Source: Pseudopedobacter saltans DSM 12145
GTDB lineage: Bacteria > Bacteroidota > Bacteroidia > Sphingobacteriales > Sphingobacteriaceae
Assembly (NCBI RefSeq): GCF_000190735.1
Contig: NC_015177.1
Coordinates: 1,984,001 to 2,048,000, forward strand
DNA: 64,000 bases
Direction: 5' to 3'
Every line of letters begins with the position of its first letter. The first letter of the stretch is position 1. The notes beneath the pieces are model-generated. The model searched no databases. It had not been told where the DNA came from and saw nothing but the letters and a program-made list of their open reading frames with translations. The translations under genes were made by a program, and so were the position numbers. Below, piece by piece: positions 1 through 25,070 of this stretch.

Positions 1-2271
1 CTAAAAAATGACAGTCTGACATTCAACGTTAAGTTATCAGATAAAGACGCAGTAAACCAGCTCGATTTATACGGATTGGTAGAATTTGGAAGTGATACCT
101 TAGCTAAATTAAGCTTGCTGCCTTCGGATTTGATTATAGAAAATGATGTGTGGAAAATTCAGGACAAAGTAAAGTTCAAATTCGAAGAGAAAAGAACCAT
201 TATAGAAAACTTCGAGCTATCCAACAAAACGCAACTTCTGGCTATAAATGGCGCCATTTCTTCTTCCAAAGATGATTTATTAGAAATTGTAACAGAAAAC
301 TTCCGCCTTTCATCTTTAAGACAATTAACCAAAGGTCTGGGTATAGAATTATCCGGAATTATGAATGGTTCGGCAAATCTTTCGGCAATTTTGGGAGAAC
401 CGGATATTAAAGCCGATCTGACTATAGACTCCTTAAAATACAACGAAACTGAAATCGGAAAAATGTTGATTGCCGCTCAATTCGACAATCTGCAAAACAA
501 TATTCAGGTCAAATCCACAATCGAAAAAAACAAAAAAAGAACCGCGGACATTTCCGGAGTTGTTGATTTTAAAAAGGATACCGAGAATCTAAATCTTGAT
601 GTGAACCTGGATGGAACGGAAATTATTATTTTCGAACCCTTTGTCAAAGAACTGGTTTCCAATTTAAAAGGGCGAATATCATCGAATCTAAAAGTCACCG
701 GGTCATTTAATAAACCTCAAATAAATGGTGGTGTAAACTTAATAAATGCAGGTTTTACCGTAAATTACCTTAAAACACCTTATGTCATCAACGATGATGT
801 CACTTTCAACAACAGTGTTATCAACCTGGATAATCTCATTATCTCGGATAAATACAACAATACAGCGATTGCTAACGGAACTGTAGATTTAACCGACGCT
901 TCAAATCCCGATATACGCGCAACTATAAAAGCGACTAATTTCCTTGCATTAAACACCACTGCAAAGGATAATCCTTTATATTACGGAAGTGCCTTTGCAA
1001 CAGGAATATTCACCTTCAATGGGCCAACAGACGCGATGGATATCAATATAAAAGCAAGAACCGAAGAAGGTACAGTTTTCACCGTTCCTTTTAATGCAGC
1101 GTCGACTATTGGAGAAAACGATTTCATAACGTATGTTGCCAAAGACACTACTATATTAGCTCCGGTAAAAGAAAATTTCTTCAAGGGTTTAACCATGGAA
1201 TTCGAACTTACAGTGGGACACAGTTCCATCGTGAATCTAATTACCGACGTTGGTAATATCTATGGTCGTGGCGATGGTCTTCTGCGTCTGAGGATTACTT
1301 CTCTTGGCGATTTCGAGATGTATGGAGACTATATAATTGATGACGGTAAATTTGATTTCACATCCAACAACGTTATCAATAAAACCTTTGAAATTAAAAA
1401 GGGAGGTACCATACGTTGGACCGGAAACCCAAGTGATGCTACCATTAACCTAAGTGCAGCTTATACAACAAGGGCTAATCTTCTGCCATTGTACCAAGCC
1501 GCCGGTCGGACACTGTCAGACGACCGAAGGAACGAAAGAGTTTTGGCCGAGGCTGAGATGATTCTGAATGGTTCCCTTTTAAATCCGGACATAAATTTTG
1601 GTCTCGAGTTCCCTAACAATACCGGTATTAAAACAGAGCTGCAAGGTTATTTGGATAACGAAGACAACGAATCGCAACAAGTTATTAATCTGGTTGTAAG
1701 AAATGCTTTTAACGGAAGTTCCGGAGCGGGAATAGGCTTCACCAATAACGACTTATTGGGGTCTGGTTTAGAACTGGCTTTCAGTAAATTAAATAATATC
1801 ATTTCGCAGTCACTAAATATTAAAAACCTCGATATTAACGTAAGATCGCAAAGTGAAATTGGTGGTAGCTATAGCTTTTTCGATAACCGATTGAAAATAA
1901 CAGGAAACTTTGTCAACAACAAATACAATGTCGACAATATGTTGGATAACAATATTTTAAATTCAAGTTTTACAGATCTTACCAGAGACCTGGAAATGAC
2001 CTACAATATTAACAGAGATGGGACATTTGTAGCTAAAATTTTCCAAAGACCTACAAACAGAGATTTTTTCAATCTTAACCGTGATATTTATGTCAACGGA
2101 TTCGGTCTGGTTTTTACGCAGGAATACGATACTTTCGCCGAGTTTATCCGAAACACTTTTGCAAGAAGAAAACAGCAGCAACTTAACCCGTTGAATGTAC
2201 CAACAAACAATAAAACAAGAAGCAACACGCCAACTGCCCGTCCTATCTCAACGCCTATAAAGCCAGAATAA
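1..2271 (+). CDS. tamB: TamB-type translocation/assembly protein, C-terminal part (5' end outside window)
   Basis: The reading frame is open from base 1, so this is the C-terminal roughly 757 residues of a much larger protein. It is rich in short alternating beta strands with repeated hydrophobic/polar patterning and ends in the DUF490/TamB-type region (around GDGLLRLRITSLGDFEMYGDY, then a C-terminal segment with NINRDGTFVAKIFQRP and a Pro/Thr-rich tail). TamB family proteins form a long periplasmic beta-taco groove from the inner membrane that is linked to outer-membrane biogenesis and lipid or protein transport. The only start-like codon upstream of the bulk is an internal TTG at 76, which is not the true start. 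It converges with the RluA-family gene. Family call is confident; substrate unknown. Confidence 0.85.
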   Translation, partial: LKNDSLTFNVKLSDKDAVNQLDLYGLVEFGSDTLAKLSLLPSDLIIENDVWKIQDKVKFKFEEKRTIIENFELSNKTQLLAINGAISSSKDDLLEIVTENFRLSSLRQLTKGLGIELSGIMNGSANLSAILGEPDIKADLTIDSLKYNETEIGKMLIAAQFDNLQNNIQVKSTIEKNKKRTADISGVVDFKKDTENLNLDVNLDGTEIIIFEPFVKELVSNLKGRISSNLKVTGSFNKPQINGGVNLINAGFTVNYLKTPYVINDDVTFNNSVINLDNLIISDKYNNTAIANGTVDLTDASNPDIRATIKATNFLALNTTAKDNPLYYGSAFATGIFTFNGPTDAMDINIKARTEEGTVFTVPFNAASTIGENDFITYVAKDTTILAPVKENFFKGLTMEFELTVGHSSIVNLITDVGNIYGRGDGLLRLRITSLGDFEMYGDYIIDDGKFDFTSNNVINKTFEIKKGGTIRWTGNPSDATINLSAAYTTRANLLPLYQAAGRTLSDDRRNERVLAEAEMILNGSLLNPDINFGLEFPNNTGIKTELQGYLDNEDNESQQVINLVVRNAFNGSSGAGIGFTNNDLLGSGLELAFSKLNNIISQSLNIKNLDINVRSQSEIGGSYSFFDNRLKITGNFVNNKYNVDNMLDNNILNSSFTDLTRDLEMTYNINRDGTFVAKIFQRPTNRDFFNLNRDIYVNGFGLVFTQEYDTFAEFIRNTFARRKQQQLNPLNVPTNNKTRSNTPTARPISTPIKPE

Positions 2272-16647: not shown

Positions 16648-18129
16648 TTAATTAATAGTCTGAGGCAAATAATTCTCTAAAGCGGCTTTCAGCTTAGGAT
16701 CATATCCATAAACATCATCCACCCAAGTAATCCCATCTTTATCATCTGCAAAAGCAGTATAATAAGCCAAATATACTTTTACAGGATCTTTAACTTTCAC
16801 CCATCTTGATTCATTATCGCTACCAGTAATTTCAGATTTCACTTTTTCACTTTCCTTCTGATCGTTTAAAAGAAAATCAACCAATTTTAAAGGTTGCTCT
16901 ACCCTAACGCAACCGTGGCTAACCGCCCGGTTTTTTTCATTGAACATCTGCTTTGCTGGTGTGTCATGCAAATAAATAGCGTAAGGATTATAAAATATAA
17001 ACTTAACCCTACCCAAAGAATTATCTGAACCAGGGTTCTGTTTAAAAGAATAATCATCGACACTCGCCGAACTCCAGTCTACGCTTTGTGCATTAACAGC
17101 AGCACCGGATTTATCATAAGCCACCATATTGCTTTCGTCCAGATAAGAAGGATTCTCGACTAACTTGGTCATAATTTCCTTTCCTGCTATGCTTTTAGGA
17201 ATATTCCAAACCGGATTTATCTGCATTCTGTCTATGGTGCCACTTAACACAGGTGTTTCGTGGTTTTGACCATTTTTAGAGTAAGGAGGATTAGCCGTAG
17301 CGCCTACACAAACCTTCATCGCCAGTGCTTCTTTATGATTGTCATAAAGTCGCAGTTTAAATTCCGGAATATTTACCAAAATAAACTTTTCAGGGAAATC
17401 AGAGATTTTCCAGCGCAGTCTCTCCAAATTCAAAAATATCCTCTCTTTCTGATCTCCTGATAGACCCTTTTGCATCTCTGCTTGTAGTGCTGTATAAACA
17501 GCATTTTTAGGTTGCAAATCACGAAGGAAGCTGATAAGATCCATTTGTTCCAGCATCTTTTGCGATTCAATAAAATCAGGCCTTTCTATAGAATCAAAAT
17601 ATCTTCCATAAAGCTTTTTAGGATTTATAGCTCCATATTTTAAGATATTTGCGTAATTAATCAAACCGTCGGCACTTAAAATCTCCAACCTGGCTAACAC
17701 AGGATATATTTCTTCTATTTTTTTAAATCTAGTTTTTTTAACACTGTCCAATAGGTTTGCAATATCATCTGAGTGGAAATAAACTGGATTTAAACCGTGT
17801 ACTTCAGAATTCGATAAATGACCTGATAGACTGTCTAAGCCGCCATCTAGTAGAAAACTTCCTAATAGCGTGAGCCTGTTACCTTCTTCACTATAGATTT
17901 TATTTAACCATTTTGGATGATGAACCTGCCTAATTTCTTTTTTTAATTGTTCTGCAAATACGGAATAATATGCCGCGGTATCAAAATCTTTGTAGGCTTT
18001 GCTTTTAAAAGCTTTGGACAAGCTCCTTCCAAACTCTTCATGTTTGTATTTTTTACAAGACACCAAAAAAAATAGTGTAAACGACAGTAGAATAAATATA
18101 TGTTTAAACTTCATAAGGATTGTTTTCAT
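16648..18129 (-). CDS. L,D-transpeptidase, YcbB-like lipoprotein
   Basis: A 493-aa exported protein. The N-terminal signal ends in FFLVSCKK, a lipobox, so it is probably a lipoprotein. The middle part (about 60-240) resembles the scaffold/helical region of YcbB/LdtD-type enzymes. The catalytic YkuD domain (about 250-440) has SHGCVRVEQP with the nucleophilic Cys and the preceding HDTPAKQMF. Such enzymes form 3-3 crosslinks in peptidoglycan or attach proteins to it. It has no operon partner; it is convergent with hscA and divergent from the his operon. The ORF begins at an ATG at 18129; a second in-frame ATG five codons in (MKFKHIF) is also possible. Confidence 0.88.
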   Translation of the reverse strand: MKTILMKFKHIFILLSFTLFFLVSCKKYKHEEFGRSLSKAFKSKAYKDFDTAAYYSVFAEQLKKEIRQVHHPKWLNKIYSEEGNRLTLLGSFLLDGGLDSLSGHLSNSEVHGLNPVYFHSDDIANLLDSVKKTRFKKIEEIYPVLARLEILSADGLINYANILKYGAINPKKLYGRYFDSIERPDFIESQKMLEQMDLISFLRDLQPKNAVYTALQAEMQKGLSGDQKERIFLNLERLRWKISDFPEKFILVNIPEFKLRLYDNHKEALAMKVCVGATANPPYSKNGQNHETPVLSGTIDRMQINPVWNIPKSIAGKEIMTKLVENPSYLDESNMVAYDKSGAAVNAQSVDWSSASVDDYSFKQNPGSDNSLGRVKFIFYNPYAIYLHDTPAKQMFNEKNRAVSHGCVRVEQPLKLVDFLLNDQKESEKVKSEITGSDNESRWVKVKDPVKVYLAYYTAFADDKDGITWVDDVYGYDPKLKAALENYLPQTIN

Positions 18130-18218
18130 CCTCTAATACAATTAGTATGCCTGCATAATAAGTATATTAAATAGTTATTTATTTTCTCCGTAAACAACGA
18201 AATAATTACAATTAGTCA
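18130..18218. other. Upstream part of the L,D-transpeptidase/his intergenic region
   Basis: AT-rich divergent spacer upstream of the his promoter. It has no reading frame and no strong structure. It presumably carries the promoter of the minus-strand L,D-transpeptidase gene, but no clear TAnnTTTG box was found on that strand. Confidence 0.3.
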
Positions 18219-18248
18219 TTGATTCAATCACAATACTTTATATATTTG
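18219..18248 (+). promoter_or_regulatory. Promoter of the his operon
   Basis: TTG at 18219-18221, a 19-base spacer, then a perfect TAnnTTTG box (TATATTTG) at 18241-18248. Both elements and the spacing fit the Bacteroidota primary-sigma consensus. Transcription should begin near 18254, about 40 bases before the His-rich leader frame and about 180 before hisG, leaving a long leader transcript. Confidence 0.75.
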
Positions 18249-18295
18249 CGGTATCTAATATTTCTCATCAAAAGGAAATTATTAAAAGAGACAAA

Positions 18296-18361
18296 ATGAA
18301 CAAGTTTTTGAACACTGTACATCATCATCTGCATCATCGCCATTTGGGCGGTGTTATATAG
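18296..18361 (+). CDS. His-rich leader peptide of the his operon
   Basis: A 21-codon frame that starts with ATG, contains HHHLHHRH (six His in the eight codons 9-16), and ends with TAG. It lies between a perfect promoter and hisG. This is the hallmark of a transcription-attenuation leader: when charged tRNA-His is scarce the ribosome stalls in the His run and changes folding of the downstream RNA. A 7-bp hairpin (CATCGCC/GGCGGTG, 18335-18353) begins in the last His codons, where a stalled ribosome would disrupt it. The frame is too short to be found by ordinary gene callers. Function is inferred from codon content and position. Confidence 0.82.
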   Translation: MNKFLNTVHHHLHHRHLGGVI

Positions 18362-18433
18362 TATGTTTTGTACGTCAAAACGGTTTGTCATTTTATCAAA
18401 AAATCAGTCTTTTATTAATAATTTAAAATCATC
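18335..18433 (+). promoter_or_regulatory. Candidate his attenuator region
   Basis: Three mutually close structures lie between the His codons and hisG. These are a 7-bp stem at 18335-18341/18347-18353 (one G/T pair, loop ATTTG), a 6-bp stem GTTTTG/CAAAAC at 18365-18370/18376-18381, and a competing CAAA/TTTG stem at 18376-18387, followed by T-rich ATTTTATC. The downstream stems are short, and no classical strong terminator with a T-run is visible. The region may therefore work by another mechanism such as translational control of hisG, which starts with TTG. Confidence 0.5.
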
Positions 18434-19285
18434 TTGAAAACTTTAAAAATAGCTATCCAGAAGTCGGGAAGACTTAACGAAAAATCTGTTGAATTACTAA
18501 AAAACTGTGGTCTAAGTTTCGAAAACTATAAAAGTTCTTTAATTTCCTCTGTATCTAATTTCCCATTGGAAATCCTTTTTTTAAGGGATGATGATATTCC
18601 GGAATACGTTCAGGACGGTATCGCTGATATAGGAATAGTTGGGGAAAACGTGATACAGGAAACTCAGGTAGAGGTTGCTTATCTACAGCGCTTAGGTTTT
18701 GGAAAATGTAAGCTTAAGTTAGCTGTCCCTGTAGACAGTTCTATTAAGACGGTAAAAGATTTGGAAGGAAAGGCTATCGCTACTTCTTATCCAAATATTT
18801 TAAAGAATTTCCTTACAAAGGAAAGCATTAATGCAGATATCAAAATGATTTCAGGTTCTGTTGAGATTGCTCCGGGATTAGGATTAAGCGATGCTATTTT
18901 CGATATCGTTTCTACTGGTGGAACTTTAAAAAACAACGGGTTAAAACCTTTTCATGATGTAATTTCTTCTGAAGCCATTTTGATTGGTAGAAAAGGTGAA
19001 GAGGATGAAGAATTAATTCAGGAATTGATTCAAAGGATACAGTCTGTTCTTCGTGCTAAAGACAATAAATATATTGTGCTAAATGTAGAGCGTAAAAATC
19101 TGGAAAAAGTGACTGCCTTATTGCCGGGAGTAAAAAGTCCTTCGGTGATTGCTTTGGCTGATGAAAACTGGGTTGCTGTACACACAGTAATTCCTGAAAA
19201 GGATTTCTGGGATAGAATCAATGAATTGAAAAGTGCAGGTGCGCAAGGTATTTTAGTAATGCCAATAGAAAAAATCATTATGTAA
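18434..19285 (+). CDS. hisG: ATP phosphoribosyltransferase, long form
   Basis: A 283-aa HisG, first enzyme of histidine synthesis (ATP + PRPP to phosphoribosyl-ATP). It begins KTLKIAIQKSGRLNEKSVELL, has DIGIVGENV and DIVSTGGTLKNNGL (PRPP loop), and a C-terminal ACT-like regulatory domain (about 210-283), so it belongs to the long, His-inhibited form that needs no HisZ. The start is TTG; no ATG occurs near it in frame. A weak start is common under leader control. First structural gene of hisGDCBHAFIE. Confidence 0.95.
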   Translation: MKTLKIAIQKSGRLNEKSVELLKNCGLSFENYKSSLISSVSNFPLEILFLRDDDIPEYVQDGIADIGIVGENVIQETQVEVAYLQRLGFGKCKLKLAVPVDSSIKTVKDLEGKAIATSYPNILKNFLTKESINADIKMISGSVEIAPGLGLSDAIFDIVSTGGTLKNNGLKPFHDVISSEAILIGRKGEEDEELIQELIQRIQSVLRAKDNKYIVLNVERKNLEKVTALLPGVKSPSVIALADENWVAVHTVIPEKDFWDRINELKSAGAQGILVMPIEKIIM

Positions 19286-19304
19286 TTCAATTACATGCTG
19301 AACA

Positions 19305-20600
19305 ATGATGAAAACATATAAATACAACGAATTAAGTGAAGCTGCTGTTTGGGGACTGGTTTCCAGAAATGCAGACAGCAATAACGAAATTCGCGGTGCT
19401 GTGGAAAATATTATTGCAGAAGTAAAAGCAAATGGTGATGACGCGCTAAAAGCTTTTGCCAGCAGATTTGATAAAGTAGAGCTAGACCAAATGTTTATTG
19501 GCAAGCAAGCGATTGCAGAACTAGCCAATAATATAGAGGAAGATGTAAAGCAAGCTATTACTGTAGCTTATCAAAATATCAGAAAGTTTCATGAGACACA
19601 AAGAGCTCGTGAAGAAAAAACAGAAACATCAGTCGGAGTAACCTGCTGGAGAGAAGTAAGGGCTATTGAAAAGGTAGGTTTATACATTCCGGGCGGTTCT
19701 GCAGTTTTACCAAGTACTTTTTTGATGTTGGGTATTCCTGCAAAAATTGCTGGCTGTAAAGAAATTGTAGTCTGCTCTCCTCCTCAGAAAAACGGATCTA
19801 TAAATGGTTACGTGGCTTATGTAGCGCAATTGCTGGGTATCGAGAAAGTATATCTTGCTGGTGGTGCACAAGCTGTTGCCGCTATGGCTTACGGAACGGA
19901 AAGTATTCCTAAAGTAGATAAAATCTTTGGTCCCGGAAATCAGTTTGTCACTATGGCAAAAACCATTATACAGTCCACCACAAACACTGCTATAGATATG
20001 CCTGCCGGTCCTTCCGAAGTTTTGGTATTGGCTGATGAAACGGCAAATCCTAAATATGTAGCTGCCGATTTATTAGCTCAGGCGGAACACGGTGCAGATA
20101 GTCAGGCTGTTTTGGTTTGTACTGATGAAAATATACTTGAACAATCTATTCTGGAAGTAGAAAAACAAATTAAAACTCTACCCAGACAGGAAATCGCAGC
20201 CAAAGCTATTGCCAACTCCTATGCTGTTTTAGTTGATAGTTTAGCAAAAGGAATGGATTTTAGCAATATTTACGCTCCGGAACACTTAATTCTGGCTACA
20301 GAAAAGTGGTCGGCAATTACGGATAAAATAGTTAATGCAGGTTCTGTTTTCCTAGGAAATTTGACCCCGGAAAGCGCGGGTGACTATGCTAGTGGAACTA
20401 ACCATACTTTGCCAACAAGTGCTTATGCAAAATCTTATTCTGGTGTTTCTTTAGATTCTTTTGTAAAGAAGATCACCTTCCAGCACATTAGTGCAGAAGG
20501 AATAAGGAATTTAGGACCAACTGTCGAAATTCTGGCAGAAATTGAGGGCTTACATGCACATAAAAATGCAGTAACGGTTAGATTGTCGGACAATAAATAA
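19305..20600 (+). CDS. hisD: Histidinol dehydrogenase
   Basis: A 431-aa Zn-dependent NAD enzyme that oxidises L-histidinol to L-histidine in two steps, the last of the pathway. Signatures are GLYIPGGSAVLPST, IFGPGNQFVTMAK, DMPAGPSEVLVLAD, LLAQAEHGADSQAVL (Zn ligands Gln/His) and the C-terminal YAPEHL and GSVFLG segments. Two tandem ATGs (19305 and 19308) are possible starts. It follows hisG by 19 bases in the operon. Confidence 0.96.
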   Translation: MMKTYKYNELSEAAVWGLVSRNADSNNEIRGAVENIIAEVKANGDDALKAFASRFDKVELDQMFIGKQAIAELANNIEEDVKQAITVAYQNIRKFHETQRAREEKTETSVGVTCWREVRAIEKVGLYIPGGSAVLPSTFLMLGIPAKIAGCKEIVVCSPPQKNGSINGYVAYVAQLLGIEKVYLAGGAQAVAAMAYGTESIPKVDKIFGPGNQFVTMAKTIIQSTTNTAIDMPAGPSEVLVLADETANPKYVAADLLAQAEHGADSQAVLVCTDENILEQSILEVEKQIKTLPRQEIAAKAIANSYAVLVDSLAKGMDFSNIYAPEHLILATEKWSAITDKIVNAGSVFLGNLTPESAGDYASGTNHTLPTSAYAKSYSGVSLDSFVKKITFQHISAEGIRNLGPTVEILAEIEGLHAHKNAVTVRLSDNK

Positions 20601-20609
20601 GGATTCGAA

Positions 20610-21662
20610 ATGTCATTCAACATCGATAATATAATAAGAGAAAATATCAAAAAGCTAAAGTCCTACTCTTCTGCAAGAGACGAATTTCAGGGTGAAGCTT
20701 CTGTATACCTGGATGCTAACGAGAACGCTTTTGGTTCTCCATTGGAAAAAAACTACCACCGCTATCCAGATCCAATGGCGCATGCTGTTAAATTGGAACT
20801 AAGCAAAATTAAAGGCGTTCCACCTCGTAACATTTTTTTGGGAAATGGTAGTGACGAGGCTATAGATATTCTATTCAGAAGCTTTTGCAATCCGGGAATT
20901 GACAATGTGATTATCGTCCCTCCGACGTATGGGATGTATGAAGTTTCAGCTAATATTAATGATATCTCTTTAAAAAGGGTAAATCTTACGCCAGATTACC
21001 AATTAGATTTAGAAGGAATCGCAGCTGCAATAGATGTGCATACTAAAATGATTTTTATTTGCTCACCAAACAATCCTACCGGTAACAGCATCCGCAGAGA
21101 AGACGTAGAAACACTGTTAGCCAATTTCAATGGATTAGTAGTTGTGGATGAAGCCTATATTAATTTTTCCAGACAAAAATCCTTTATTCAGGAATTGACA
21201 GAATATAGCAACCTGGTGGTTTTACAAACTCTTTCAAAAGCCTGGGGATTGGCAGGCTTACGTGTGGGAATGGCTTTTGCAAGTGAAGAAATCATAGAAA
21301 TTTTCAATAAAGTAAAGCCTCCTTATAATATGAATGAAGCTTCGCAGGAATTGGCTTTAGCTGCACTAAAAAATGTAGACCAGGTTAATGAATGGATTAA
21401 GCATATTCTAAAAGAAAGAGATAATCTGGTTCTTACTTTGAAAGGCTTTGATTTTGTTTTGGATATCTATCCATCTGATGCCAATTTCATTCTGGTAAAA
21501 ACCACCGATGCCAATGCTGTTTATAATTATTTGGTTGAACAGGGTATTATTATCAGAAACAGAAACAAAGTAGAGCTTTGCGAAGGCTGTGTGCGTATTA
21601 CTATTGGTACGCCTGAAGAAAACAACACATTAACAGAAGCTCTTAAAAATTTTAGAGTTTAG
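20610..21662 (+). CDS. hisC: Histidinol-phosphate aminotransferase
   Basis: A 350-aa class I/II PLP aminotransferase. It has the N-terminal YLDANENAFGSP (substrate arm), FLGNGSDEAIDIL, CSPNNPTGN, VVDEAYINF, the PLP-lysine motif TLSKAWGLAGLRVG, and the C-terminal VRITIGTPEEN. It converts imidazole-acetol phosphate and glutamate to histidinol phosphate. It begins 9 bases after hisD and is cotranscribed. Confidence 0.95.
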   Translation: MSFNIDNIIRENIKKLKSYSSARDEFQGEASVYLDANENAFGSPLEKNYHRYPDPMAHAVKLELSKIKGVPPRNIFLGNGSDEAIDILFRSFCNPGIDNVIIVPPTYGMYEVSANINDISLKRVNLTPDYQLDLEGIAAAIDVHTKMIFICSPNNPTGNSIRREDVETLLANFNGLVVVDEAYINFSRQKSFIQELTEYSNLVVLQTLSKAWGLAGLRVGMAFASEEIIEIFNKVKPPYNMNEASQELALAALKNVDQVNEWIKHILKERDNLVLTLKGFDFVLDIYPSDANFILVKTTDANAVYNYLVEQGIIIRNRNKVELCEGCVRITIGTPEENNTLTEALKNFRV

Positions 21663-21733
21663 AATTATGCAAAAGATATTCTCTTTGGGGATATCTTAAG
21701 CTAGACAACGAATAACTAAAGACTAAAACTGAA

Positions 21734-22870
21734 ATGTCGAAGATACTTTTTATTGACCGGGACGGTACTTTAATTTTAGAGCCAGCGGACGAACAGATTG
21801 ATTCTTTTGCTAAACTTATTTTTTACCCTGGTGCAATTAGCAATCTTGCTAAAATTGCAAAGGAACTGGATTACAAGCTGGTAATGGTAAGTAATCAGGA
21901 TGGTTTGGGAACTGAGGCTCATCCTGAAGAAAACTTTTGGCCTGTACAAAACTTCATTATCGAAACTTTAAAAAATGAGGGTATAGATTTTGATGAAGTT
22001 ATTATCGACAAAACTTTCGCAAGAGACAATGCGCCTACCCGTAAACCGGGAACTGCTTTATTGACTCATTTTTTTGATAAAGAAAAATACGATTTAGCGA
22101 ATTCTTTCGTGATAGGTGACAGATTAAATGATGTTGTTTTAGCTAAAAACTTAGGTGCAAAAGCCATTTGGCTAAATAATAATCCTGAATTAGGAGCTTC
22201 GGAAGCACAAAACAAAATTGATAATGCTCACGAAATAATCGCTTTAGAAACCACAGACTGGGAAAAAGTTTATGAATTCCTTAAAGTTGGAAAAAGGGCT
22301 GTTAAACATGTAAGAAAAACCAAGGAAACGGATATTACTATCGAACTTAACCTGGACGGAAAAGGCGATGCTAATATTTCTACAGGGCTTCATTTCTTCG
22401 ACCATATGCTGGATCAGATTGCCAGACATGGGGGTATTGACTTAACAGTGATCACTAAAGGCGATTTACATATTGACGAACACCATACTATTGAAGATAC
22501 TGGTATAGCTTTGGGTGAAGCATTTCTGGAAGCTTTGGGCGACAAAAAAGGTATCGAAAGATACGGTTTCTGTTTACCAATGGATGATTGTTTAGCACAA
22601 GTAGCTTTAGATTTTGGAGGCAGAAACTGGATTGTTTGGGACGCTGAATTTAAAAGAGAAAAAGTTGGTGATATGCCTACAGAAATGTTTTTCCATTTCT
22701 TTAAATCTTTTTCAGATGCATCAAAATCCAATCTGAATATCAAAGCAGAAGGTGATAACGAACACCATAAAATAGAAGCGATATTCAAAGCTTTTGCAAA
22801 AGCAATTAAAATAGCTATCAAACGCGATATTAACAATATGCGTTTACCTAGCACTAAGGGATTGTTATAA
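21734..22870 (+). CDS. hisB: Bifunctional histidinol-phosphatase/imidazoleglycerol-phosphate dehydratase
   Basis: A 378-aa fusion. Residues 1 to about 165 are a HAD phosphatase (FIDRDGTLI nucleophile motif, [22 protein letters not shown]) that dephosphorylates histidinol phosphate. Residues about 185-378 are IGP dehydratase, with the two metal-binding segments [15 protein letters not shown] and [14 protein letters not shown], and [17 protein letters not shown]. The same fusion is known in enterobacteria and is usual in Bacteroidota. A 71-base, AACTAA-rich spacer separates it from hisC. Confidence 0.95.
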
Positions 22871-22945
22871 GAAAGTTATAAGTATAAAGTTTAAAGTTAT
22901 AAGTTGACTAACTAATAACTGACAACTAACAACTAAATACTGAAC
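22871..22945 (+). repeat. AACTAA-rich low-complexity spacer in the his operon
   Basis: A 75-base spacer between hisB and hisH built from short repeated units: AAGTTATAAGT/AAAGTTTAAAGT and then several AACTAA/ACAACTAA units. The neighbouring his genes mostly sit 9-24 bases apart. Similar units precede hisB and the Hsp70 gene. No promoter box is visible. Confidence 0.45.
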
Positions 22946-23536
22946 ATGATAGGCATTGTAAATTACGGAGCTGGAAATATATTCTCTCTCACTTCAGCGT
23001 TGGAAAGATTGGGCTTAAGTTATGGCATGATCAATACGGAAGCTGATTTTGATAAATATGAGAAAATAATTATCCCTGGAGTTGGACATGCAGGTACTGC
23101 CATGCAAAAATTAAAAGAAACAGGATTGGTTCCCGCTATTAAGGCTTTAACCAAACCTGTACTTGGAATTTGTGTAGGGATGCAACTATTGACTAATTTT
23201 TCTGAAGAGGGAAATTCTGACCTTTTAGGTATTATTCCGCTTAAAACACTTCGCTTTAAAGAAGAAGTTTCAAAAAAGGTTCCGCATATGGGTTGGAACC
23301 AGATAAAGCCGATAAATGACAGTCCTATTTTCACTGGAATTGCTGATAAAACATACTTTTACTTCGTACACTCCTATTTTATAGAATTTAATACTAAATT
23401 TACAGCCGCAATTTGTGAATACGGGATTGACTTCTCGGCAGCAATACAAAAAGATAACTTTTATGCAGTTCAGTTTCACCCTGAGAAATCTGGTGAGGCC
23501 GGTGAAAGACTGCTTAAAAATTTTGCAAACTTATAA
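22946..23536 (+). CDS. hisH: Imidazole glycerol phosphate synthase, glutaminase subunit
   Basis: A 196-aa class I glutamine amidotransferase with the nucleophile elbow GICVGMQLL (Cys), PGVGHAG (oxyanion strand), and the His/Glu of VQFHPEKSG. It supplies ammonia to HisF, which makes IGP and AICAR. Both subunits are in this operon, with hisA between them. Confidence 0.95.
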   Translation: MIGIVNYGAGNIFSLTSALERLGLSYGMINTEADFDKYEKIIIPGVGHAGTAMQKLKETGLVPAIKALTKPVLGICVGMQLLTNFSEEGNSDLLGIIPLKTLRFKEEVSKKVPHMGWNQIKPINDSPIFTGIADKTYFYFVHSYFIEFNTKFTAAICEYGIDFSAAIQKDNFYAVQFHPEKSGEAGERLLKNFANL

Positions 23537-23546
23537 TAAATAGAAA

Positions 23547-24296
23547 ATGTATATCATTCCAGCAGTAGATGTTCTTAATCAAAAAGTTGTTAGACTTCGC
23601 GAAGGCGATTACAATCAGGTGACGGAGTACGAAGTTTCTTTAGAAGAACAAATTACGACATATCAATCTAACGGAACCGAGTTTGTACATATTATCGACT
23701 TAAACGGTGCTAAAGGAGATTTTAGCAATCAACAATATTTATTCGACATCATTAAGAAAACTGATATGAAAGTTCAGTATGGTGGTGGTGTTAGAAGTGT
23801 AGAAAAAGTAAAAGAATTAATTGACGCGGGAATCCACCGTGTTATCGTGGGTACTCAAGCCATTACCAACCCGAGCTTTCTGGAAGATTTAAGCAAGGAA
23901 GTTTCTGGTAATAAAAAACTCTCTGACCATATTGTTGTCGCTATCGATGTATTGGACGAAGTAATTAAATATTCTGGTTGGATGGAAAGTTCCCCTATCA
24001 AATTATTGGATTACGTAGACAAATGTCTGAATTTAGGTTTCTTCAGATTTCTTTGTACAGACATTAGCAAAGACGGTAAGCTAGGTGGTGCAGGCGTGGA
24101 ATTATACAAAAAACTGTTGGCCCACTCTCCTTTTATCAAACTAATTGCTTCAGGCGGTATCAGTTCAATGAAAGATATTGAGGAATTAAACCATTTGAAA
24201 TTAGAATCTTGCGTTGTTGGTAAAGCGATTTACGAAAACCGTATCTCCATTGAAGATGTGAAAATGTGGAACTTAAAAGCATTAACTTCTTTATAA
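23547..24296 (+). CDS. hisA: ProFAR isomerase
   Basis: A 249-aa TIM barrel that isomerises the ProFAR aldose to the PRFAR ketose. The catalytic Asp is in IPAVDVLNQKVVRL near the N-terminus and the second in FLCTDISKDGKLGGAG. Phosphate-binding loops YGGGVRS and ASGGISS are present. It begins 10 bases after hisH. Confidence 0.95.
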   Translation: MYIIPAVDVLNQKVVRLREGDYNQVTEYEVSLEEQITTYQSNGTEFVHIIDLNGAKGDFSNQQYLFDIIKKTDMKVQYGGGVRSVEKVKELIDAGIHRVIVGTQAITNPSFLEDLSKEVSGNKKLSDHIVVAIDVLDEVIKYSGWMESSPIKLLDYVDKCLNLGFFRFLCTDISKDGKLGGAGVELYKKLLAHSPFIKLIASGGISSMKDIEELNHLKLESCVVGKAIYENRISIEDVKMWNLKALTSL

Positions 24297-24314
24297 TAAT
24301 CTAATTCTTAAGTC

Positions 24315-25070
24315 TTGTTAAGTAAACGTATTATCCCTTGTTTGGATGTTAAGGATGGCCGTACGGTAAAGGGTGTCAATTTTGTCGACCTTCGCGATGC
24401 TGGGGACCCCGTAGAATTGGCCTGGCAATATTCTCAACAGGGAGCCGATGAATTAGTTTTTTTAGATATCACGGCAACTCACGAAAAGCGTAAAACTACC
24501 CTGGAAATGGTAAAGGCTGTTGCTCGCCAAATCAATATTCCTTTTACTATCGGTGGTGGAATAAGCGAAATTAAAGATGCCGAAGCATTGTTAAATGCTG
24601 GTGCTGATAAAATTTCGATTAATTCTGCTGCTGTTCGCAGACCGGAATTGATTGATGAACTGGCGAAAGCTTTCGGAATTCAGTTTGTTGTAGTGGCTGT
24701 AGATACCAAACATTTACCTGAAGGTGATATCGTCCATTTAAACGGTGGCCGTTTAGCTACCGAAATCCAAACTCAAAATTGGATAAAAGAAGCTGAGAAT
24801 CGTGGAGCCGGTGAGATCTTATTGACTTCAATGGATAAAGACGGTACTAAATCGGGATTCGATAATGTACTATTGAAAGAGATTAACGACATGGTGAGTA
24901 TCCCGGTTATTGCCTCTGGCGGCGCGGGAAGTCAACAGGATTTCATAGATGTTTTTCAAAAAACAAATGTAGATGCAGCATTAGCTGCTTCAGTTTTTCA
25001 TTACGGAGAAATCTTAATTCCGGAGCTGAAAAAACTATTACAAGAAAACAACATTCCTGTTAGATTATAA
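24315..25070 (+). CDS. hisF: Imidazole glycerol phosphate synthase, cyclase subunit
   Basis: A 251-aa TIM barrel, start TTG. It has [43 protein letters not shown] (catalytic Asp) and ASGGAG. It joins with HisH to make IGP and AICAR from PRFAR and glutamine-derived ammonia. Length is typical for HisF when started at the TTG, so that start is kept. Confidence 0.95.

Follow-up and report, generated by a model that had tools for sequence, protein, structure and literature searches.

The leader region of the his operon, in the Bacteroidota family to which Pseudopedobacter saltans belongs, combines a conserved His-rich leader frame, a co-evolved long-range helix and a hisG start codon different from the one prevailing in the other Bacteroidota sampled; the intrinsic terminator is missing. 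A tentative reading, to which we give slightly less than even credit, is that this one family swapped the output of a sensing leader from termination to translation initiation and kept the sensor. The terminator would be gone and the hisG start weak, a co-evolving helix would shut both the start of the leader and the region just ahead of hisG, and the decision would be taken once, on the nascent transcript. Coordinates refer to the window, i.e. the whole stretch of 64,000 nucleotides analysed (positions 1,984,001 to 2,048,000 of contig NC_015177.1), unless another locus is named, and the window features described lie on its forward strand.

The his gene run spans positions 18434 to 25070, with hisG (18434-19285), encoding ATP phosphoribosyltransferase, at its head. 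The first-pass annotation had named a TTG-started hisG here, and both points hold: TTG 18434 is the earliest possible start in the frame, and HisG identity is given by Pfam and NCBIfam matches (PF01634, PF08029, TIGR00070). The first two genes of the run are HisG and HisD by the same libraries. Later genes match an aminotransferase, an imidazoleglycerol-phosphate dehydratase, a glutamine amidotransferase and two histidine biosynthesis proteins, and the five are probably hisC, hisB, hisH, hisA and hisF, judging from gene order and protein family. Promoter-like elements of Bacteroidota type, TTGATT (18219-18224) and TATATTTG (18241-18248), are present before the leader frame, where a promoter had been proposed, and transcription plausibly starts near 18255. 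The pair fits the sigma-70 consensus at 9/12 positions, and matches of this quality are as frequent as in shuffled sequences (3 found, 2.9 expected). Of 125 distinct family sequences, 122 carry, by a loose, self-made pattern, an element of the TATATTTG (-7) type 5' of the leader.

The leader frame, denominated hisL (MNKFLNTVHHHLHHRHLGGVI), extends for 21 codons from the ATG at 18296 to the TAG at 18361. Codons 9-16 (18320-18343) include six His, at codons 9, 10, 11, 13, 14 and 16, exactly as first described, and His runs recur in the leaders of the family. A His-rich frame is found within 400 nt upstream of hisG in 79/81 sequences, corresponding to 80 related loci plus the window; the family membership of these loci (Pedobacter, Mucilaginibacter, Daejeonella and similar genera, plus metagenome bins) is assumed. 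The two misses are L014, where a degenerate version is present, and L049, located at a contig end. In a second set of 59 regions, classed as same family by software and partly repeating species of the first set, the frame was found in 57; one of the misses (L119) has an ATG-started hisG, the other (L122) a TTG-started one. Under a stricter rule (at least 4 His in 7 codons, short ATG frame, at most 240 nt from hisG) it was detected in 54/59 cluster representatives and in 2/2360 dinucleotide shuffles. The leader rule itself asks for 3 His in 7 codons, and in GC-rich genomes some of the frames it accepts will be due to chance. Conservation of the His run in relatives, the check proposed along with the first description, is thus borne out, and gives strong support to a putative His leader peptide at the head of the operon. 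Spacing is kept as well: the leader stops 52-85 nt before hisG in 122/125 distinct sequences. The three exceptions (108, 122 and 153 nt; L071/L111, L116 and L118) all have an ATG-started hisG. ATG is found in L064 too, despite a normal leader spacing. In L118 the leader, P2 (see below) and a TTGAAA resembling the usual start are all present, and hisG begins further 3' with ATG, as read by eye; this locus is possibly a natural decoupling. Other His leaders were searched for in the P. saltans genome: among 23 pattern matches (4 with the reversed pattern), the loci of 12 were inspected by eye, and none was leader-like except hisL.

No intrinsic terminator was found in the window between 18100 and 18600, in agreement with the earlier remark that no clear T-run terminator is visible. 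Across the loci, terminators were searched for with a self-made rule, applied with no shuffle control. Among leader-bearing family loci, 132/135 have no match between leader and hisG, and the remaining three matches correspond to the leader's own hairpin, P1. The same rule detected a terminator in 52/63 leader-bearing Bacteroidota loci outside the family, and none in the other 11. Start codons are similarly divided: hisG starts with ATG in 60/63 outside loci, in contrast to 5/135 in the family, where GTG or TTG is used in 130/135. Some species contribute to both sets in the family count, which leaves aside L018, with no start assigned, and the leaderless L014, L049, L119 and L122. The outside sample was drawn from 244 genomes with a hisG match and comprises 82 of them, the 22 best-scoring plus 60 hand-picked across families; 63 of the 82 have a leader and 19 have none, and one locus comes from f17, a large and distant family. 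In the 80-locus set hisG starts with ATG in only 2/80 cases (non-ATG in 78/80), and ATG starts hisD in 71/79, hisC in 68/74 and hisB in 63/72; a weak start thus marks hisG in particular. Outside loci featuring both leader and terminator are classical attenuators. Among loci L089-L108 and L171-L213, His leaders followed by an intrinsic terminator are common in other families of the phylum. Long His-rich frames without a terminator by the rule also precede hisG in L214, L215, L218 and L219 (family f23), and in L184, L185 and L094 (family f8). Of the ribosome-mediated attenuation suggested in the first-pass annotation, the conserved leader stands; the terminator is found neither in the window nor, apart from the three P1 matches, in the family.

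The RNA from 18255 to 18448 folds to -39.4 kcal/mol (z = -3.94; 0/200 shuffles as good), and is almost one long hairpin, P0, with arms at 18276-18311 and 18375-18424 in minimum free energy folds. The 5' strand runs through 5' UTR sequence and the leader's start codon into its first codons; the 3' strand ends 10 nt before the hisG start codon. Within it, P1 (18335-18353) is the 7-bp hairpin CATCGCC/GGCGGTG already recognised at the end of the His run, with arms at 18335-18341 and 18347-18353, the 5' arm being formed by the last His/Arg codons. P2 (18365-18381), GTTTTG-TACGT-CAAAAC, immediately follows the leader stop, with the leader competing for its 3' arm. The 24 nt 3' of the leader stop fold better than shuffled sequences in 49/59 representatives. 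Window RNA from 18339 onward folds no better than shuffles (z +1.2). The weak stems downstream of the leader, noted in the first pass, give place as candidate control element to the long-range P0, which had been overlooked.

P0 is a co-evolved long-range helix. Its pairing was computed for the sequence 5' of the His run against the sequence lying between P2 and hisG, in 59 representatives of 117 sequences; eight of the 125 distinct leader-bearing sequences were left out, having an ATG-started hisG or a leader start more than 150 nt away, in some through an upstream in-frame ATG. The real strands give 21.5 expected pairs; shuffling the 3' stretch reduces this to 10.2, and a 3' stretch borrowed from another species to 10.7. 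Real values exceed the control mean in 57/59 (shuffled) and 56/59 (swapped) representatives (p about 2e-11, relatedness ignored), and are higher than those of swaps made within clades in 47 of the 54 representatives so compared (p 3e-8, relatedness again ignored). No such excess was found in 44 hand-chosen loci among the 52 of terminator type (6.7 vs 7.2 pairs; 16/44 higher). Consensus folds computed per clade feature P1 and P2 in 5/5 clades and P0 in 4/5; in the fifth (set g3) long-range pairs extend instead into hisG. P0 is formed, by eye, by differing sequences in differing clades. Compensating changes had been recommended as a check. Long-range pairs with a double change are present in three clades (1/5, 3/9, 3/8) and absent from two (0/7, 0/8), and RNAalifold, run on another alignment of 53 Mucilaginibacter-type sequences, recovered only P2 and no covariation.

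The mechanism proposed is as follows. The leader would be gated by the ribosome, sensing charged His-tRNA, and would act on hisG translation; we consider the chances of this evenly balanced. When histidine is plentiful, the leader would be read and left. P0, capped by P1, would then form and shut off both the start of the leader and the AU-rich region leading to the weak TTG/GTG start of hisG. Under histidine shortage a ribosome would stall on the His codons. Since the His run begins just 3' of the P0 5' strand, this ribosome would cover or fence off the strand and break P1; P0 and P1 could not form, the small hairpin P2 would form in their place, and hisG would be translated. Stalling, order of folding, and translation as the controlled step, rather than transcription or decay, are what we infer. 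Translational control of the TTG-started hisG, mentioned in the first pass as one option, fits the data better than a classical attenuator, the translational step itself being conjectural.

Modelled accessibility bears on this scheme. The region -45 to -20 relative to hisG is unpaired at 0.39 with its own 5' segment and at 0.52 with a foreign one (lower with its own in 54/59 representatives), so its closure by P0 is specific. Closure of -20 to +5 is not specific family-wide (0.569 unpaired with own and 0.597 with foreign 5' segment; lower in 26/59, p 0.15). Pairs between the 5' UTR and this region number 6.8, vs 5.0 and 4.2 in controls (higher in 40/59 and 39/59), and are fewer than 4 in 20/59 and at least 4 in 39/59 representatives. 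Without a ribosome, the zone of P2 and the sequence 3' of it are engaged by the first leader codons, and P2 itself seldom forms; placing a ribosome on the His codons raises P2 from 0.09 to 0.29 of the zone. When the stall is modelled by the ribosome footprint only, P0 drops from 21.5 to 13.8 pairs and -20 to +5 is unchanged (0.578 free, 0.566 stalled, 26/59 higher; 0.491 in both states in the window). A separating model, in which RNA behind the stalled ribosome cannot pair across it, was chosen after this result. Under it, the stall opens -45 to -20 from 0.39 to 0.59 unpaired (54/59) and raises P2 from 0.9 to 2.5 pairs (52/59); -20 to +5 opens just from 0.569 to 0.618 (36/59), and a ribosome at the leader stop codon opens it equally (0.633). 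In the window alone, -20 to +5 goes from 0.42 to 0.60. The foreign 5' segment control was added after the result of the separating model. Because it supports closure of -45 to -20 and not of -20 to +5, our estimate for the translational reading came down from a little above even to even.

Since -20 to +5 is not specifically closed, and a footprint-only stall is without effect on it, the readout could be transcriptional, or pass via the leader. Published data bear on the same point: according to PMC6847099 the region of lowered structure in Flavobacterium is -20 to +20, and according to PMC3155529 a hairpin at -21 left translation unreduced in Prevotella bryantii, which counts against the translational reading. 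Control at the level of transcription, where leader and P0 would set how Rho reaches the RNA, how RNA polymerase pauses or how a non-canonical terminator acts ahead of or inside hisG, is the best placed of the alternatives, and still rather unlikely. It would agree with P0 closing -45 to -20 and not the start region, with transcription attenuation being the common state in other sampled Bacteroidota families, and with a stretch before hisG that by eye, uncounted, is pyrimidine-rich in many species. Yet no terminator-like site is present in 18100-18600, the three matches among 135 family loci are P1, and the weak hisG start codons are unexpected of a purely transcriptional switch. Rho in its simple version would moreover work in the wrong direction, since it is under histidine shortage that stalling would expose the stretch to Rho.

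P0 might instead mainly limit translation of the leader, or protect the mRNA from decay, any change in hisG being secondary. The leader start (-15 to +6) is indeed more closed in the free RNA than -20 to +5 of hisG (0.27 vs 0.58 unpaired). The conserved distance between leader stop and hisG, exceeded only in three sequences with an ATG-started hisG, argues against this possibility, which we regard as improbable. Reinitiation at hisG by ribosomes leaving the leader, or coupling through a second short frame, is more improbable still: the distance just mentioned is long for direct reinitiation in 122/125 sequences, and the arrangement seen in the window, where ATG 18363 opens a 24-codon frame starting from P2 (18363-18437) whose TGA overlaps the hisG TTG, is found in only 7/59 representatives; of the others, 33 have a frame that stops short of hisG, 8 one that continues into it, and 11 no ATG at this place. 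Such an overlapping frame was accordingly rejected as a conserved element. A classical terminator/antiterminator attenuator missed by the scans, to which His leader and P1 bear some resemblance and of which classical cases exist elsewhere in the phylum, is just as improbable as reinitiation, as the rule that finds terminators in 52/63 outside loci gives 3/135 matches in the family, all P1.

Other amino acid leaders were noticed in the same genome. A leader with three Trp codons (MNKKTNISKKWWWHKICQPG; locus L230, about 2000-2162, minus strand of the locus) precedes trpE (PF04715 match), and a GC-rich hairpin with a T-run before the gene gives, by eye, the layout of a classical attenuator. Similarly, an Ile/Leu/Val-rich short frame (MLVIINLIFLLVIRLILGGMQKACFR; locus L232, about 368-510) lies before an ilvE-like aminotransferase gene, and is followed 3' by a hairpin with a T-run, read by eye as a terminator. 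The genome thus appears, on visual reading, to keep the terminator design in its trp and ilv leaders. If the proposal for hisG is true, one genome would offer a natural comparison between two outputs of one kind of sensor, the terminator of trp and ilv and the clamp of his.

The window gave one weak, unrelated match to Rfam (E 0.14), a library which covers described families only, and nine loci, including three His leaders of terminator type and the trp and ilv leaders of P. saltans, gave none at gathering score. No account of the hisL/P0 element was found in titles and abstract openings of the open-access literature, among the matches listed. The element looks like a leader-peptide attenuator, but is without the terminator that defines the classical kind. 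In the his attenuator of enterobacteria, a leader peptide with dense His codons precedes hisG, and alternative RNA folds are set by the ribosome on the leader. Leader, dense His run and position before hisG are the same here, as would be the choice between folds by the leader ribosome; in contrast, no intrinsic terminator was found, and the start of the leader and the region ahead of hisG are instead covered by a long-range helix. In translational attenuation of erm type the signal is an antibiotic, and the ribosome stalled on the leader frees the start of the next gene. This is the nearest tested mechanism, and the freeing step would be the same as proposed here, but here uncharged His-tRNA would serve as the signal, and the 5' UTR takes part in the helix. 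Among predicted elements, the closest parallel is LEU, found before leuA in Actinobacteria and, in PMC1262725, a prediction distinct from the classical attenuator. Both have a leader with a run of codons for the relevant amino acid and a predicted pairing over the ribosome site of a biosynthetic gene. In LEU, as that paper describes it, it is the Leu codons that bind the Shine-Dalgarno box, whereas here the partners are an AU-rich stretch on one side and the 5' UTR with the leader start on the other. Bacteroidota are described, in PMC6847099, as a phylum without Shine-Dalgarno use. The P0 clamp, if true, would be an example of how translation may be switched by RNA structure in bacteria that make no use of Shine-Dalgarno pairing, and hisL would document leader peptides in Bacteroidota. 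Close as well are the loci of other Bacteroidota families featuring a His leader and a terminator: hisG is homologous, and position and His-rich leader are the same, but those loci have the terminator, mostly start hisG with ATG, and exhibit no excess of long-range pairing in the 44 tested.
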